Notes: a model not told the origin generated them from the letters alone. Shown: positions 49,037-57,541, numbered from the stretch's first letter. The stretch is 64,000 bases of DNA from Leptolyngbya sp. BC1307 (GCF_002286735.1 NZ_NRTA01000008.1:62001-126000); one strand, 5' to 3'. A program made the numbers and translations.

Positions 49037-50137
49037 CTAAGCCGACAGCGCCTCAAATAAAAACCCACGCCCTTTCCGAATGGCCCGATCCAGGTAGCTA
49101 GCTGACTGCGTGGCAATCAGCACCTGCTGCCGCTGCCGGGGAGAATACTCGCACCATTCCGCGTAGGCAGGCACCGCTATCACTTCTAAAAATACTTCCC
49201 ACTTGCGCAAAATCTTCTCGGGAGTGTAGTCCTGTGCTCTCAGGCTGCCCTGAGTGATTAGCGATCGCCGCCAGCTCGCATCTGCTTTTAGCCGGTCCAG
49301 GCTGTCTAGCAGCTCCCGAAAAGATTTGGCTTCCACATAGTCCTGTCCGGGCTGGCCGGTCTGCCGGTAGGCGCTTTCTACCCCTAAAACGGCAATGGTG
49401 CCGCTCAGCCAGGCGTTGTAGAGTTTGGTCGCAGGCTTACCGGCAAAGCCTCGGGTTAGCCGTCGTCGCCAGGTATCAAAAGAGCGAACGGCAATAATCG
49501 CATCGACATCGCTGTAGTCATTCCATCGGGTGTCCAGATCACTGTAGTGATTCCAGTGATTGCTATTGACGACCATGCGACCGCGCAACCCCCGTTCGGC
49601 CAGAGCAATTTGCCAGTCGCGCGACTGGAGTTCGTCGGCCAGACTATTTTCGTGGCCGAAGAAAGCAACCATCTCGAAGCGATCGCCTCGGTCAGCCTGA
49701 CGCGGTATCAGCTGCGGCTGCGGCCAGTGAGGAATGTAGTAACGTTCAGCCGCAGCCGACGCCTCCGACGGATTCTGAACAATATGCATTGACGCCACTG
49801 CGCAAAGCGGTGCTTCTGCCTTCATGCAGATCAGCAGTCTCTTGGCAGCAGGCGCAATCTCGACCGTGCGAAGGGCATTGCTATGGCAAAAAACGATCCC
49901 TTCAGCGGGTAGCTGACTCGTCAGTTCGCAGGCTACACCTGCTGCCTTGAGCCACATGTAGGTCTGCACCGTCCAAGCGTAAAGCCCCAGCCCGTAACCC
50001 GCCCAATTTTGATTAGGGCCAGTCGGCAGCTGATCGGGCCAGAGAGAAGGCGGAATAAAAAATGAGATGGACGGCGTCGTCACAGCAGTATTTGGCCGAT
50101 GATCATGGAGCGGGTCAATTAGGCTACAGCTTTTCAC
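49037..50137 (-). CDS. GT-B-like glycosyltransferase-related protein, unknown function
   Basis: 366 residues. N-terminal part: SISFFIPPSLWPDQLP, NWAGYGLGLYAWTVQTYMWLKAAG, IVFCHSNALRT. C-terminal part: ATKLYNAWLSGTIAVLGVES, YVEAKSFRELLDSLDRLK and RRSLITQGSLRAQDYTPEKILRKWEVFLE, which resembles the donor-binding end of GT-B glycosyltransferases (acidic residue after a Gly-rich turn, then a capture loop). A full catalytic set is not visible, so activity is uncertain. It is convergent with the exonuclease gene, six bases apart. Likely a cyanobacterial family without a known role. Confidence 0.7.
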   Translation of the reverse strand: MKSCSLIDPLHDHRPNTAVTTPSISFFIPPSLWPDQLPTGPNQNWAGYGLGLYAWTVQTYMWLKAAGVACELTSQLPAEGIVFCHSNALRTVEIAPAAKRLLICMKAEAPLCAVASMHIVQNPSEASAAAERYYIPHWPQPQLIPRQADRGDRFEMVAFFGHENSLADELQSRDWQIALAERGLRGRMVVNSNHWNHYSDLDTRWNDYSDVDAIIAVRSFDTWRRRLTRGFAGKPATKLYNAWLSGTIAVLGVESAYRQTGQPGQDYVEAKSFRELLDSLDRLKADASWRRSLITQGSLRAQDYTPEKILRKWEVFLEVIAVPAYAEWCEYSPRQRQQVLIATQSASYLDRAIRKGRGFLFEALSA

Positions 50138-50803
50138 TCCGTAGACTATAGAAACAAGACATTAAGATAAGACCAAGATAGGGTTATGCTGCGCGCACAA
50201 AGCCTGCTCTACTTGTCGCCTGACAAGACCCAATGACACACACCATTTTGCCAAGAATGTCTCAGTTGGTATAAAAACAAGAGATTCCGTCCTGAAAATC
50301 TAGAGGCTTCAACAGAATATTAGCAGCGGCTAACGTCGATGTTCACTTGATAGCTTTTTCTAGCATTTGCTTCATCTGGAGCGATCGCAGTCTCTAGTCA
50401 GCGAAAACAGGCCGCGCATTGATAACCCTTTCATAACCTTCCCTTTACCTGTAGGGAGAAGAACTCTGGTAGCTTACAAAAGACATCAAAAACAATTGAT
50501 AACAAGAGGGTTTACAGCCTGTAATCCTGACTCCAGTTAAGGCTAGGAAAAACTCCCAAGTCTCTGCTGAATGCTGCCATTCGGCAATATCAAGGTGTGT
50601 ATCTGTGCCCGCTCCACTAGCTAGGGCACTGTCTGCGTAAACGTCATGCCAAATTCTCATAGGTTTGTCTAACGGGTTGTTCTTAAATTCTGTTAGTGAC
50701 ACTTACTGCGCTGGTATGCGGAAAGTGAGCTATTGGGCTGAGAACTGGCTGTAGCAGGCGCATGTAAGAACTTCGGCAGCCGCGAAAGAATATTAGGAAA
50801 ATC
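50138..50803. other. Long regulatory region upstream of the phosphoesterase fusion
   Basis: 666 bp with divergent promoters. It contains the Pho-box-like array at 50419-50451 and one weak minus-strand frame (50445-50702) that was rejected. The distance from the array to the ATG (353 bp) implies a long leader or an unannotated start. Confidence 0.5.
50419..50451 (+). promoter_or_regulatory. Pho-box-like array (three 11-bp-spaced repeats)
   Basis: Three direct repeats at exact 11-bp spacing: TTGATAACCCT, TTCATAACCTT, CCCTTTACCTG. Cyanobacterial PhoB/SphR boxes are tandem 8-bp repeats of CTTAACCT type with 3-bp spacers, that is an 11-bp period. The downstream gene encodes a phosphoesterase, which fits. 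Binding is inferred, not shown. Confidence 0.6.
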
Positions 50804-53800
50804 ATGACGCCCTCTCTTGAAAGAATCGGTAGCTTTGTCAGCGAAATTGGCGCTGAGATTATTGCCTTCGACGATACCCAAAAGCTGCTCTATGTAGTTT
50901 CCGGGCAAACCACGATTCAAATACTCAGTCTGAGCGACCCGACTGCGCCCGAAGAAGTTCTTTCTTTAGACTTGGCGACGTTGGGTGTGCCCATTGCCGG
51001 GGCTAACAGCGTCGCTTATCGCAATGGGTTGCTGGCAGTCGCTTTACAAGCTGCTGTTAAGACCGATGCGGGCACAGTCGCTGTGATTGATCTGGCCCTG
51101 TCCGAGACAGCTGGCTTGCCAGGTGCGTCCCAACTCTTCACGGTGGGCGCACTGCCCGACATGGTTACCTTTACCCCAGACGGCAGCAAAGTGCTAGTCG
51201 CTAATGAAGGCGAACCTCAAACCGATGAGGAGGAGGCAGACTTTGGCGTTGACCCCGATGGTTCTGTCAGCATTATTGATGTCTCTGGCGACTTTGCCAG
51301 CCTTTCTCAAGCGAACGTTTCGACCGCTGATTTTCTGAGGTTCAATGGTAGCGAAGCCGATTTACGCGCCGATGGGGTGCGAATTTTTCCCGATGCGATG
51401 GCCGCGCAAGACTTTGAGCCTGAATACATTGCGGTCTCGCCAGATGGCACCAAGGCGTTTGTGACGCTGCAAGAGAATAATGCGATCGCCATCATCGACA
51501 TTGAGAGCGCTACCGTAGAAAGCGTTAAGCCACTAGGATTAAAGGACTTTAGCCTTGAAGGTAACGGCTTAGATGCCAGTGACGCCGACGGCGGTATCAA
51601 TATCAGGCCGCAGTCAGTGTTTGGGCTGTATATGCCCGATTCGATTGCGTCTTTTGAAGCGAATGGTGAGACTTACTATCTAATAGCTAATGAAGGCGAT
51701 GATCGTGGCGATGCTGACGAAGCCGGGCGGGGCGATGCTATTCGGCTCAACGGTCTGGCCGATGTCGTCTCTTTGGGCCGCAGCGGTTTAGCGCTTGACG
51801 AAAGCTTTGATGCCGCCGTAGAAAATGGCCTCTTAGCAGATGAAAACCTGGGCCGATTAACCATTTCCTCGATTGACGGCGACCTCGATGGGGACGGCGA
51901 TCTTGACCAGATTGTGGCTTATGGGGCGCGGTCTTTTTCAGTGCTCGATGACAATGGCAATCTGGTCTTTGACAGCGGCGACCAGATTGCTCGGATTACT
52001 GCTGAGCAAACGCCCGAACTGTTTAATGCAAATGACGGTGATCCAGCCGAGGTAGATACCCGCTCTGACAACAAGGGCGCAGAGCCCGAGGCGATTACCA
52101 CCGGCATAATCGGCGGGCGCCCCTACGGATTTGTCGGCTTAGAGCGCGCAGGCGGCGGCATTTTGGTCTACGACCTCTCAAATCCGCGTCAGCCTGAATT
52201 TGTGCAGTATGTGCGCAGCGATGAAGATATTGCGCCAGAGGGTCTAGCATTCATCTCGGCTGATAAAAGTCCTAACGGTCAGCCTCTGTTAGCGGTGGCA
52301 AATGAAGAGTCTAATACGGTCGCGATCTACGAGGTTGATATTCCGGCAGCGGCTGTGAGTGAAATTCAAGGGGCCGCGCATCTCTCACCTTTAGCCGGTG
52401 AAGTGGTGAAGACCGAGGGCATCGTCACGGGCGTGGCCTTTAACGGGTTTTACCTGCAGGGCAAGAGCGATGGAGATGACGCGACTTCGGACGGTATTTT
52501 TGTCTTCACAGGCGCTCAGCCGACGGTGAGCTTAGGTGACCAGGCGCGGGTATTTGGCACCGTTAGCGAATTTATCCCCGGCGGAGCAGATACGGGCAAC
52601 CTGTCGATTACGCAGCTGACTTCGCCCGATGTGGTCGTGCTCTCTGAAGGCAATGAGCTGCCAGCGGCGATGGTGATTGGCCAGAGCGGTCGGGTGGCAC
52701 CCAGCGAGATTGTAATTAGTGACGATGAGCTGCCGGTAAATCTGCAAAGCGATCCGGGTAACTTCGACCCTGAGCAAGACGCGATTGATTTTTATGAAAG
52801 CTTAGAAGGGATGCGGGTGACGGTAGAAGATGCGATCGCTATCTCCCCCACTCGTGTCTTCAACCCATTTTCAGCCGAAGCCTTTACCCTGCCCAACCAG
52901 GGCGCAACCGCTACCCCAGAAGGCGCACTCACAGCACGCGGCGGCATCAACCTGCGCTCCGGCCCAGAGAATATAGGCGACCAAAACCCGGAGCGGGTAC
53001 AGATTCAGTTTGATCCGAACCTCTTGCCTGAAGGATTCGAGACGCCAGCGCTCACGGTCGGCGATCAGCTCGGTGATGTCACAGGCGTGGTTGGCTATAG
53101 CTTCGGCAACTTTGAAGTGAACGTGACCGAAGCCTTTGAAGTGACGCCTAGCGGCTTAACTCAAGAGGTGACTTCCCTAGCCGGTAACGAAGGCGAGCTG
53201 ACAGTTGCTAGCTACAACGTGCTCAACTTGAGCGCCCTAGAGGAAGATGACAGCCAGCGCATGCTGCTAGCTGAGCAAATTGCTAATAATCTCAACTCGC
53301 CCGACATCATTGGCTTACAGGAGATTCAAGACAATGATGGGGAGACTGACGGCGCTGATAGCCCGGTGACGGATGCCAGTGAGACTTTGCAGAAGTTGGT
53401 AGATGCGATCGCCCTCGCTGGCGGCCCTACCTACGCCTTTGCCGACATTGCCCCCGTAGATGACTCCACAGGCGGCGTCCCCGGCGGCAATATTCGCAAT
53501 TCGTTCTTGTACAATCCTGACCGGGTCTCTCTAGAGTCGCTCACGTTGCTAGGCGGCATAGAAGCCTTTGCCGGTAGCCGCGAGCCGCTAGTCGGAGAGT
53601 TTTTATTCAATGGCGATTTAGTCACTGTTGTTAATAATCACTTCTCTTCACGATTTGGCTCTACGCCCATATTCGGTGGTCCGCAGCCGTTTGTGCAGGC
53701 GGTAGAAGAGACTAGAGAAGCCCAAGCTCAGGCAATTAACGACTATGTCGATGGGCTTTTGAGCGACCGGCCCGGCGCTAACGTTGTTGTCCTGGGCGAT

Positions 53801-56800
53801 TTGAACACCTTTGAATTCACCAACGACCTCACAGAGATTTTACCGGGCGTAGGCGATGAAAAAGTGTTGACCAACCTGGTCGATCAAGCGTTAGCGGCTG
53901 GCGATGCCTACAGTTTTATTTTTGATGGCAACAGTCAGGTCTTAGACAATCTGTTTGTCTCTGACGCGCTATTGCCAGGTGCCAAATTTGACATTGTTCA
54001 TGTCAACAACGATTTTCCGCGCGACGACAATCGCCTTCGCTTTGCCGATACCGTCGTCGCCAGCGATCACGAACCAATTGTTGCTCAACTCACTTTAGCT
54101 GGTTCTAATTCAGGAGAGCCCCCCATGACGAGTGCGCCTTTTCAGCTACAGCTTTTACACCTGGCCGACCAGGAAGCGGGCATTCCCGCACTAGACGATG
54201 CCCCTCGCGCCTCGGCAGTGATCAACGCGCTTAAAGACGACTATGAGAATACGCTCATTCTCTCTTCGGGCGATGCGATTATTCCGGGTCTCTTCTTTAC
54301 CGCCAGTGAAGAAGCCTTTGGTGGAGCCGGTCGCGCGGATATTCAAATTCAAAATGAGCTGGGTATTCAGGCGATCGCCTTTGGCAACCACGAATTTGAC
54401 CTGGGTACAGCGCTGCTGCGCGACTTGATTGCTGGCGGTGAAGACGACCCTGAAACGCCCGACATTGACGAATCTTTTATCGGCGCTCAGTTTCCCTACC
54501 TCAGCAGCAACCTCGACTTCAGCACAGACCCTAATCTGGCTGACCTGGTAGTGACCGACGATCAGTCGCCCAAGCCCAACAGCATCGCCGCTACAACCGT
54601 GATCGATGTAAATGGTCAAAAGATTGGCGTGGTCGGCGCAACGACCCCAACCCTGCCATCCATCTCCAGCCCTGGCGACGTTACCGTTTTACCCGAAGAC
54701 TTTGATGGGACGCCGACGCCTGAGCAGCTAGACGCCCTGGCTGCTGAAATTCAAACCGATGTCGATGAGCTGCTAGCGGCTAACCCCGACTTGAACAAAG
54801 TGGTCTTGCTTGCTCACATGCAGCAGATCTCGATTGAGCAGGAGCTGGCAACCCGGCTGAAAAATGTGGACATCATCGTAGCGGGCGGCTCTAACACGCG
54901 CCTGTTTGATGAGAACGATCGGCCTCGCGATGGCGATACGGTGCAGGGTGAGTACCCCATCTTTAAAGTCGATGCTGACGGTAAGCCAGTCGCTGTGGTC
55001 AATACCGATGGCAACTACAAGTACATCGGTCAGCTGGTAATTGACTTTGATGAGAATGGCAACATTATTCCTGAGAGCTACGATCCGGCGGTGAGTGGCG
55101 CTTACGCGACCGATGAACAAGGCGTCGCGGCGCTGAATGCACAGGGATTAGTAGATCCTGAAATTCAGGCGATTGTCGATACGCTGGAGGCGGTCATCAT
55201 TGCTAAAGAGAGCAATGTCTTGGGCATTAGCGATGTCTACCTCAACGGATTACGCAGCAGCGTGCGCACCGAAGAGACTAACCTGGGGAACCTGACGGCG
55301 GATGCGAATTTGGCGATCGCCAAACAAACCGACGACAGCGTTGTTATCTCGATCAAAAACGGCGGCGGCATTCGTGACGACATCGGTCAGGTGATTGTGC
55401 CACCGGGCGGTACGGGCGAACCTGAGAGACTGCCAACAGAAGAGATTCCGGGCGTGAAGCCAGCTGGCGGCATCTCGCAAAACGACATTGCCAACAGCCT
55501 GCGATTTAACAACGGCCTGGCGCTGCTAACGGTCACCGCCGAAGAGCTGCTAGCGATCATAGAGCATGGGGTATCAGCTAGCGCACTCGACGATGCGGAG
55601 ACGCCAGGGCAATTTCCGCAGGTAGCGGGCATTGAGTTTAGCTTTGATGTGACAGCCGCACCAGGCGATCGCGTTCAGTCTTTAGCCGTACTCGATGAAG
55701 CCGGTAACGATGCCGACGTGATTGTTCAAGACAGCGAACTCGTCGGCGACCCCGCTCGAACCTTCCGATTGGTGACGCTCGGATTTTTGGCAGGCGGCGG
55801 CGATGGCTATCCTTTCCCCGTGCGCGATGTCGTAGACCTGACCCAGCCTGACGATGCGGCTCGCACTGGCACGGCAACCTTTGCACCCGATGGCTCCGAG
55901 CAAGATGCCCTGGCGGAGTACTTAGCCGCTAACTTTGGCGTCACCAATCCCTTTGACAGCCCTGATCAGCCTCGCGCCGGAGACACCCGGATTCAAAACC
56001 TGGCCTTCCGCGAAGACACGGTGATTGACGGCGCAGGCGGCGGCACTGGTGGCGGCAACGGCGGCGGCAACGTGGGCGAAGAGCTGGCGACTACCCTCAA
56101 CAATCTGCTGGCGATCGCCAGTAACAGCGTCACTCAGCTCACAGCGACTCTCACGGGCCGTGCTGCTAGCGAAGTCAGCGAGATTTTGGCCATTGTCACC
56201 GACGATGAGCAAGGCACTATCGACGGCCTAGCGCCGGGGAGTTCTGGCTATGTGCAAGCGGCCTTAGAAAGAGCGACCGTCGTGCTCTCAGCTTTAGCGA
56301 CTGGCCAGTTTAACGATCTCAACCCGCAGCGCATTCTAGATGTCGCGGGCGGCGAGTTCTTGCAGTTTGCCACCGTCAGAGGCGGGACGCTCGGCGACCT
56401 CCTCAGGGGCGGCGCAGGTGAAGTCATCTTTGCCGATGCAGCGGCCAATGGTGATAGTCAGTCAGCGATTCAACCCAGCGCATTCACTGACGGCACTGTG
56501 CAAATAGGCTTCCGGCTACCTGGCAGCAACCGCTTTGACGACCTGACGCTGAATCTGGCTTTGGGCGACGCGGCTCGTCCGCTCGGTACGCTGCTACAGG
56601 GCCAGGGGGCCGAGGGCGAATTAATTGACCTGACCGGTATCACAGACGCGGTTGTGACCGCTGCTATCGAGGTCTTCCGCGAGGCCGGCTTCGACAACAC
56701 CATGGGTTTCTATACAGTTGACGATCAGCAGGGTACGGTTCAAGATCTGCTGACTGGCAACTCACTCAGCCCCGGTGACGAGGGCTATGTGCGAGCGGCA

Positions 56801-57100
56801 TTGGCTAATCGGGTGGGGCTCGACCTAACGGGGCAAAACGGACAGACCACGCAGTTTAGTACTGAGCTACCCACCGGTAAGCTGCTGTCCACATTCTTAG
56901 TCGCCAACGGCACAGTCGAGGCGCTGCTAGATACCGATGCCTTTAACGACCCTGCGGTTTACTTCAACCACATTGGTGCGAACGCCGACGGCAAAGACCA
57001 CATCCGATTGCTTGGCGATAACCTGTTTGGCTATGAAGACCTGCCGGGTGGTGGCGATATGGACTTTAACGATGCGATCGTGAAAGTGTCTTTTGCTTAA
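50804..57100 (+). CDS. Giant phosphoesterase fusion: choice-of-anchor I, OB-fold, EEP nuclease, 5'-nucleotidase, DUF4114
   Basis: 2098 residues. Residues about 1-515: choice-of-anchor I beta-propeller (ISPDGT- and APEGLAFI-type repeats, EPEAIT). About 525-620: OB-fold. About 800-1105: endonuclease/exonuclease/phosphatase domain, with LTVASYNVLNL, LQEIQDND, NNHFSSRFG, GDLNTFEF (about 998) and SDHEPIV, all catalytic residues kept, as in ExeM/NucH extracellular nucleases. About 1112-1440: metallophosphatase half of a UshA-type 5'-nucleotidase, with GDAIIPG and GNHEFD (about 1195), but the first DxH metal motif reads ADQE. About 1490-1735: 5'-nucleotidase C-terminal domain. A Gly-rich linker near 1745, then two related modules (TVDDQQGTVQDLL) and a DUF4114 end (DLPGGGDMDFNDAIV). 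No N-terminal signal peptide. Likely a secreted phosphate-scavenging DNase/nucleotidase. AGGA precedes the ATG. Confidence 0.93.
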   Translation: MTPSLERIGSFVSEIGAEIIAFDDTQKLLYVVSGQTTIQILSLSDPTAPEEVLSLDLATLGVPIAGANSVAYRNGLLAVALQAAVKTDAGTVAVIDLALSETAGLPGASQLFTVGALPDMVTFTPDGSKVLVANEGEPQTDEEEADFGVDPDGSVSIIDVSGDFASLSQANVSTADFLRFNGSEADLRADGVRIFPDAMAAQDFEPEYIAVSPDGTKAFVTLQENNAIAIIDIESATVESVKPLGLKDFSLEGNGLDASDADGGINIRPQSVFGLYMPDSIASFEANGETYYLIANEGDDRGDADEAGRGDAIRLNGLADVVSLGRSGLALDESFDAAVENGLLADENLGRLTISSIDGDLDGDGDLDQIVAYGARSFSVLDDNGNLVFDSGDQIARITAEQTPELFNANDGDPAEVDTRSDNKGAEPEAITTGIIGGRPYGFVGLERAGGGILVYDLSNPRQPEFVQYVRSDEDIAPEGLAFISADKSPNGQPLLAVANEESNTVAIYEVDIPAAAVSEIQGAAHLSPLAGEVVKTEGIVTGVAFNGFYLQGKSDGDDATSDGIFVFTGAQPTVSLGDQARVFGTVSEFIPGGADTGNLSITQLTSPDVVVLSEGNELPAAMVIGQSGRVAPSEIVISDDELPVNLQSDPGNFDPEQDAIDFYESLEGMRVTVEDAIAISPTRVFNPFSAEAFTLPNQGATATPEGALTARGGINLRSGPENIGDQNPERVQIQFDPNLLPEGFETPALTVGDQLGDVTGVVGYSFGNFEVNVTEAFEVTPSGLTQEVTSLAGNEGELTVASYNVLNLSALEEDDSQRMLLAEQIANNLNSPDIIGLQEIQDNDGETDGADSPVTDASETLQKLVDAIALAGGPTYAFADIAPVDDSTGGVPGGNIRNSFLYNPDRVSLESLTLLGGIEAFAGSREPLVGEFLFNGDLVTVVNNHFSSRFGSTPIFGGPQPFVQAVEETREAQAQAINDYVDGLLSDRPGANVVVLGDLNTFEFTNDLTEILPGVGDEKVLTNLVDQALAAGDAYSFIFDGNSQVLDNLFVSDALLPGAKFDIVHVNNDFPRDDNRLRFADTVVASDHEPIVAQLTLAGSNSGEPPMTSAPFQLQLLHLADQEAGIPALDDAPRASAVINALKDDYENTLILSSGDAIIPGLFFTASEEAFGGAGRADIQIQNELGIQAIAFGNHEFDLGTALLRDLIAGGEDDPETPDIDESFIGAQFPYLSSNLDFSTDPNLADLVVTDDQSPKPNSIAATTVIDVNGQKIGVVGATTPTLPSISSPGDVTVLPEDFDGTPTPEQLDALAAEIQTDVDELLAANPDLNKVVLLAHMQQISIEQELATRLKNVDIIVAGGSNTRLFDENDRPRDGDTVQGEYPIFKVDADGKPVAVVNTDGNYKYIGQLVIDFDENGNIIPESYDPAVSGAYATDEQGVAALNAQGLVDPEIQAIVDTLEAVIIAKESNVLGISDVYLNGLRSSVRTEETNLGNLTADANLAIAKQTDDSVVISIKNGGGIRDDIGQVIVPPGGTGEPERLPTEEIPGVKPAGGISQNDIANSLRFNNGLALLTVTAEELLAIIEHGVSASALDDAETPGQFPQVAGIEFSFDVTAAPGDRVQSLAVLDEAGNDADVIVQDSELVGDPARTFRLVTLGFLAGGGDGYPFPVRDVVDLTQPDDAARTGTATFAPDGSEQDALAEYLAANFGVTNPFDSPDQPRAGDTRIQNLAFREDTVIDGAGGGTGGGNGGGNVGEELATTLNNLLAIASNSVTQLTATLTGRAASEVSEILAIVTDDEQGTIDGLAPGSSGYVQAALERATVVLSALATGQFNDLNPQRILDVAGGEFLQFATVRGGTLGDLLRGGAGEVIFADAAANGDSQSAIQPSAFTDGTVQIGFRLPGSNRFDDLTLNLALGDAARPLGTLLQGQGAEGELIDLTGITDAVVTAAIEVFREAGFDNTMGFYTVDDQQGTVQDLLTGNSLSPGDEGYVRAALANRVGLDLTGQNGQTTQFSTELPTGKLLSTFLVANGTVEALLDTDAFNDPAVYFNHIGANADGKDHIRLLGDNLFGYEDLPGGGDMDFNDAIVKVSFA

Positions 57101-57166: not shown

Positions 57167-57541
57167 TTACGCCGTCTTTTTGCCGTTTTTGCCCTTTTGC
57201 TTACTGCGCACGTAAATTGTCTTATCTCTGCGATCAACTTCAAACGAGTCAATCGCTTCAAACAGCCCGCTGAGATTTGCATATCCATAATTGCGCGAAT
57301 CAAACGAAGCCTGATTTGAAATGTGAGCGCCTACCGTGGAGAGCCGCGACCAGCCGTTCTCATCTTGAATAGCTGTGACAGCGCCTCTCAAAAGATTCAT
57401 CAGCTTAGTATCCTGCTTGAGCTGTTCACCCGTTTTCCGGGTACATGCAGCAACGCCGACAGAAGATCCGTACTGAAGCAAAGACTTTATGAGGTTGCCC
57501 AAACGCATAAAGACGCGAAGCAAGGCAGGTTTCATAGCCAC
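57167..57541 (-). pseudogene. LOTUS (OST-HTH) domain protein, likely 5'-truncated NYN-LOTUS gene
   Basis: 124 residues. Residues about 48-115 form a LOTUS/OST-HTH winged helix: LLRGAVTAIQDENGWSRLSTVGAHISNQASFD, then SRNYGYANLSGLFEAIDSFEV. In cyanobacteria this domain usually follows an NYN (PIN-like) RNase domain in proteins of about 250-300 residues. Here the preceding 45 residues do not resemble NYN, but contain the usual linker (KTGEQLKQDTKLMN). Another frame just upstream (57426-57560) carries a YAFGQ stretch recalling the NYN end, so a frameshift plus deletion seems likely. LOTUS domains bind RNA or helicases. Could be a functional single-domain protein. Confidence 0.55.

Follow-up and report, generated by a model that had tools for sequence, protein, structure and literature searches.

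What does a single cyanobacterial polypeptide do that joins a nuclease, a nucleotidase and a propeller? In this study, we analysed a 64,000-nucleotide stretch of Leptolyngbya sp. BC1307 (GCF_002286735.1, NZ_NRTA01000008.1:62001-126000; hereafter the window). The open reading frame (ORF) at 50804-57100 on the plus strand starts with ATG, includes its stop codon and encodes 2098 amino acids (aa) without internal stops. A search of the genome contigs showed one full-length copy in the parent 4.9-Mb genome. Pfam and NCBIfam profiles gave the domain order choice_anch_I, OB and EEP, nucleotidase, DUF4114. An earlier note on this DNA had described one 2098-residue protein with a propeller, an OB-EEP nuclease, a UshA-like nucleotidase and DUF4114; the intact frame bears this out, and all of these parts were matched by profiles. 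We regard the protein as a variant within the known enzymes of the Pho regulon. It is probably a phosphate-starvation-induced, secreted multi-enzyme phosphorus scavenger, similar to the phoA-nucH pair merged into one polypeptide.

The activities, the metals, the export and the catalysis by the propeller are what we infer for this protein. At low phosphate, SphR/PhoB would bind the predicted triple Pho box and switch on transcription. Type I secretion, directed by the C-terminus, would carry the protein out of the cell, where the EEP domain would cut DNA and RNA and the CD73-like domain would strip phosphate from nucleotides, working with a rebuilt, probably non-zinc D-x-E and GGS metal site. 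The choice_anch_I propeller would probably act as a Ca-dependent phosphatase of the PhoA-aty type. The earlier note had proposed that DNA is taken to nucleotides and then to phosphate. This outline fits, and both the resemblance to phoA-nucH and the presence of a Pho box strengthen it. Corrections concern the role given to the propeller, the wide occurrence of the fusion and of the metal motif, and the view of export.

It has been reported that phoA (sll0654) and nucH (sll0656) of Synechocystis PCC 6803 form an operon activated by SphR through a triple Pho box (PMC1906773). The 2098-aa protein resembles this pair in having probable counterparts of both enzymes and a predicted triple Pho box, but the Synechocystis enzymes are encoded by two genes and the likeness is one of description, not of sequence alignment. 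A Pho-box matrix was built from 17 published three-box sites (PMC1906773) and used to scan both strands of the window. The top site, with 21.9 bits compared to 16.5 bits for the next, lies upstream of the ORF at 50421-50450 (+) and consists of three tandem 8-bp boxes with 3-bp spacers (GATAACCC ttt CATAACCT tcc CTTTACCT). After shuffling, 1 in 5000 versions of the upstream region and none of 60 versions of the window scored as high. A strict consensus pattern missed the site that the matrix detected, and a generic scan found no upstream sigma-70 promoter.

The relatives came from a scan of bacterial and archaeal genomes plus 292 genomes of the phylum; they were sampled by similarity to the 2098-aa protein, and the sample is biased towards it. 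In cyanobacterial loci, sites at p <= 0.01 were found for 22 of 51 homologs compared to 9 of 249 other genes (Fisher p ~1e-12, a value that overstates the enrichment because the relatives are not independent). In two related loci (L006 and L008), the DNA upstream of the gene barely aligns apart from the triple box, which is the chief stretch that is conserved. The strongest Pho-box-like site seen in the genome (27 bits, L112 1500-1529, contig C3:114131) lies about 80 bp before an ABC-transporter ATPase resembling a phosphonate/phosphate importer subunit, and judged by this resemblance it is a sensible positive control for the matrix. No other site in the window scores as well as this Pho box, which is also conserved and enriched in front of homologs; regulation of the gene by phosphate through this predicted SphR/PhoB site is therefore very probable.

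The nuclease consists of an OB-type region (52346-53188, +; residues 515-795) and an EEP domain (53189-54103, +; residues 796-1100). NCBIfam and Pfam placed the ExeM/NucH region at residues 537-1097 and EEP at 802-1089, and both EEP models, PF03372 and PF19580, exceeded the Pfam cut-offs. The catalytic motifs had been called complete, and N805, E840, H946, D999-x-N1001 and S1087-D1088-H1089 were indeed all present. The region also aligned end to end with the solved structure 9sf9 (E = 1.2e-79). ExeM of Shewanella oneidensis, which requires Ca with Mg or Mn and cuts both DNA and RNA (PMC6085458), likewise has an OB-like region and EEP. It differs in carrying a signal sequence and a lamin-tail domain, and it has neither nucleotidase nor propeller. 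A nuclease fused to a nucleotidase, as here, is found in the ExeM/NucH-family endonuclease WP_012305544.1 on pAQ7 of Picosynechococcus PCC 7002; no propeller was found in that protein, and its gene lies beside a presumed type I exporter.

The CD73/UshA-like nucleotidase occupies 54119-56029 (+; residues 1106-1742). The region matched Thermus 5'-nucleotidase and CD73 by profile search, and 5_nucleotid_C was found at residues 1484-1670 (PF02872, 82.7 bits compared to a cut-off of 23.6). The fold of the structure model matched 2z1a and CD73, two-lobed, with TM-scores of 0.46-0.57; a rotation of one lobe against the other would be expected to give such modest scores. CD73, Thermus 5'-nucleotidase and UshA share this fold and the nucleotide-contact residues but carry D-x-H and GGH, whereas the 2098-aa protein has D1122-Q-E1124 (54167-54175, +) in place of D-x-H and G1361-G1362-S1363 (54884-54892, +) in place of GGH(S/T). 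The GNHEFD motif (54383-54400, +) provides, by homology to CD73, the metal ligand N1195 and the catalytic dyad H1196/D1199. The earlier note had read ADQE for D-x-H with GD and GNHE intact, which agrees with A-D1122-Q-E1124, SGD1157 and G-N1195-H1196-E. It overlooked GGS and the occurrence of both deviations in nearly all relatives; D-x-E is not peculiar to the 2098-aa protein but, with its linked second substitution, marks a whole subfamily.

In 62 aligned relatives, D1122 was invariant, position 1124 was Glu in 61 and Asp in one, and G1361-G1362-S1363 was invariant. Origin of D-x-E by sequencing error or decay was rejected, as relatives carry it too. Bacillus and Paenibacillus homologs with the same OB-EEP-nucleotidase layout read D-x-H and GGHSH; therefore, the two switches are linked and define a subfamily. 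As judged from these alignments, the D-x-E/GGS nucleotidases are a distinct metal-site subfamily and not a lesion. By profile alignment, G1362 stands opposite a histidine that is a ligand of the second metal in CD73. Next to H1338, the relatives have an additional Gln (H-M-Q-Q, with either Gln kept in 61 of 62), which might compensate. D1122, D1157, H1196, D1199, H1338, R1488 and R1524 were invariant, and N1195 was kept in 61 of 62. The CD73 nucleotide-contact positions R1488, N1519, R1524 and F1568 were also kept, as was Y1669 in 58 of 62. Because the dyad and the nucleotide-contact residues are kept, the domain is more likely to have changed its metal preference than to have lost its activity, and the site probably prefers a metal other than zinc. 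Two loci (L096 and L074) have divergent nucleotidase modules in which the first Asp of D-x-E is also lost (HYYG-ES), and these are possible further metal-site variants.

The choice_anch_I domain, the proposed PhoA-aty phosphatase module, lies at 50849-52336 (+; residues 16-511). Residues 16-511 were recognised by Pfam with E = 9.5e-110 (PF22494, 368 bits compared to a cut-off of 32), and the NCBIfam choice_anch_I model NF038117 gave 532 bits over the full domain compared to a cut-off of 300. The structure model (pLDDT 91.9, pTM 0.93) matched seven-bladed propellers in a fold search. Among the polar residues invariant across 41 sequences, Asp and Glu prevailed, and Arg, Lys and Asn also occurred. 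In five blades of the model, they lie where one strand begins and where the following strand ends (D119/E135, E205-E207/E224-N226, D279/N296-R301, E427-E429/E447-R448 and E479/E501, the last residue being nearly invariant). With these positions at matching strand ends, the invariant acidic residues come to lie on the same face of the propeller, an arrangement also seen in metalloenzymes of this fold, and the domain is more likely an enzyme. The earlier "anchor-type domain" was a misreading of the NCBI family name, in which "choice-of-anchor" presumably refers to the varied C-terminal anchors of the carrier proteins and not to an anchoring function.

Algal PhoA-aty enzymes have acidic motifs and a Pro-Asp motif common to part of cyanobacterial PhoA (PMC4548154, PMC6723241), and a recombinant algal enzyme was activated by Ca, Mg and Mn (PMC6723241). 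The dinoflagellate and haptophyte enzymes ACAAP and EH-PhoA-aty have the acidic and Pro-Asp motifs in common with that part of cyanobacterial PhoA and show non-zinc activation (PMC4548154, PMC6723241); they are about 75 kDa, lack the other modules, and are compared here by their described motifs only. P118-D119 is invariant in choice_anch_I and agrees with the reported Pro-Asp motif, an agreement of motifs and not of directly aligned PhoA-aty sequences. As of 2015, the region common to algal PhoA-aty and cyanobacterial PhoA had no recognisable domain, which suits choice_anch_I more than it suits the nucleotidase. A choice_anch_I protein is encoded by Synechococcus elongatus, from which, or from a close relative of which, the original PhoA came. 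PhoX and Psip1 are propeller phosphatases with Ca/Fe sites (PMC11098088) and exemplify the type of mechanism proposed here, but they are six-bladed and have no detectable sequence relation to the seven-bladed choice_anch_I. On the motifs and residues compared, we somewhat favour the choice_anch_I propeller as the catalytic module of the atypical alkaline phosphatase PhoA-aty.

Since no classical signal peptide had been seen, the export route had been left open. Inspection of the N-terminus confirmed the first point: none was seen in the 2098-aa protein or in the cyanobacterial relatives inspected, whichever module comes first. Upstream of the ATG, the frame stays open for 12 residues only, and the propeller begins immediately. 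The route is less open than had been thought, as orthologs and neighbour genes point to type I secretion. RTX repeats occur in four orthologs (L004, L005, L006 and L010) at the place occupied here by DUF4114 (56870-57094, +; residues 2023-2097), a candidate export module at the C-terminus. In PCC 7002, three genes come after the NucH-nucleotidase gene; they encode a peptidylprolyl isomerase, an ABC exporter with a peptidase domain and an HlyD adaptor. Homologs in Calothrix NIES-3974 (L014) and Thermosynechococcus WC_1 (L039) also have this trio beside them, making three cyanobacteria. In Leptolyngbya sp. BC1307, the trio lies on contig C33, and its ABC protein is 53% identical to that of PCC 7002. 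A Pho-box-like site of 22.4 bits (L127 703-732) precedes this isomerase - HlyB-type ABC - HlyD operon. A PhoB-regulated type I system has been reported in Synechocystis (PMC11126600), and the exoproteome of Anabaena is reported to contain the PhoA-type proteins Alr2234 and Alr5291 (PMC4390845). Type I secretion is the likely, favoured route.

Several results weigh against this account of the protein. The Pfam search found no match of PF00149 to the nucleotidase, in which the D-x-H and GGH motifs are absent. The published work consulted does not assign catalysis to a particular part of cyanobacterial PhoA. NF033681 (ExeM/NucH) scored 155 bits compared to a cut-off of 300, though 537-1097 spans the whole model, and the nuclease is therefore named only ExeM/NucH-like. 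The PCC 7002 homolog had no strong Pho box in the matrix scan, and no RTX repeats were found in the 2098-aa protein by Pfam search. The propeller could also be a structural or ligand-binding scaffold, with the PhoA-aty activity of the cyanobacterial relatives residing in the nucleotidase domain. The fold search returned only generic WD40 and lyase propellers with no phosphatase among them, so the function is not identified by fold; PhoX was absent from the match lists, an absence that excludes nothing. Solved sequence relatives of choice_anch_I were limited to an S-layer propeller and weak matches, literature searches coupling choice-of-anchor I with phosphatase gave no result, and proteins with choice_anch_I alone are common. 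The comparison with characterised PhoA-aty also rests on motif descriptions. However, invariant Asp, Glu, Arg and Lys at matching strand ends in five blades resemble a metal centre, and the algal motifs match only the part of cyanobacterial PhoA that had no domain in 2015. We regard the scaffold as a possible but less probable explanation.

In the nucleotidase, the replacement of two His ligand positions (E1124 and G1362) and the failure of PF00149 could mean a pseudo-enzyme that only binds nucleotides, phosphate being released by the propeller or other phosphatases. The replacement is a fixed acidic ligand and not drift, and the full residue set is kept across the 62 relatives, which is rare in dead domains; a pseudo-enzyme is therefore improbable. 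It is even harder to see the main task as degradation of extracellular DNA for biofilm remodelling or defence, with phosphate release secondary. Shewanella ExeM does chiefly affect biofilm formation (PMC6085458), but here the nuclease is fused to nucleotidase and propeller modules and a Pho box lies upstream. Another export route, or an intracellular protein released on lysis, would fit the lack of RTX repeats, the unproven secretion role of DUF4114 and the position of the exporter operon, which is not adjacent in the BC1307 genome. Either appears unlikely given the RTX tails that orthologs carry in the equivalent position, the exporter beside homologs in three cyanobacteria, the Pho box of the contig C33 operon and the Anabaena exoproteome.

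The fusion is not singular. We found the modules on single polypeptides in many combinations. In 15 other loci, one protein holds all four, arranged in one of four orders, where CAI is choice_anch_I and NT the nucleotidase: CAI-OB-EEP-NT in 4, NT-CAI-OB-EEP in 5, OB-EEP-CAI-NT in 5 and OB-EEP-NT-CAI in 1. The RefSeq protein WP_203099293.1 of Skermanella rosea (plasmid pSR-2, "choice-of-anchor I family protein") has all four catalytic modules and a similar length, but it differs in its order (NT-CAI-OB-EEP), comes from an alphaproteobacterium and has no assigned function. The four-module fusion is a widespread, recurrent theme. Synechocystis-like relatives have CAI-NT proteins of about 1404-1409 aa. 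A step from two genes to one through two such loci (L123 and L124) was not supported, since no adjacent nuclease gene was present in the examined stretch.

Cyanobacterial PhoA has been termed atypical for its lack of similarity to known phosphatases; in this family, the modules can be separated and the residues of interest are named. The protein may, tentatively, be a three-catalyst extracellular phosphorus machine in which two of the three phosphoesterase centres are undescribed, one in the seven-bladed choice_anch_I and one in a D-x-E/GGS site rebuilt away from zinc, and with an exporter under the same phosphate regulator. It would become important if the propeller and the D-x-E site were proved to be phosphatase centres that work without zinc. 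Should zinc be avoided at D-x-E, this site would add to the non-zinc phosphatases (PhoX, PhoD and Psip1) of phosphorus-poor waters. A Pho-regulated exporter for leaderless giant phosphatases would, if true, account for how such enzymes reach the outside.

The C-terminal region before DUF4114 (56051-56869, +; residues 1750-2022) is common to an unrelated protein of contig C40 and to large proteins of other cyanobacteria. The contig C40 protein (L002 1-2379) combines a Calx-beta domain with this C-terminal region, DUF4114 included, at about 40% identity, and it could be another protein that the same exporter carries. The second-best Pho-box-like site of the window (50159-50188, -; 16.5 bits) lies upstream of the divergent neighbour at 49037-50137 (-), which has a weak glycosyltransferase match and may share phosphate control with the 2098-aa ORF. 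Directly downstream, on the opposite strand, a short ORF at 57167-57541 (-) encodes an OST-HTH/LOTUS domain.

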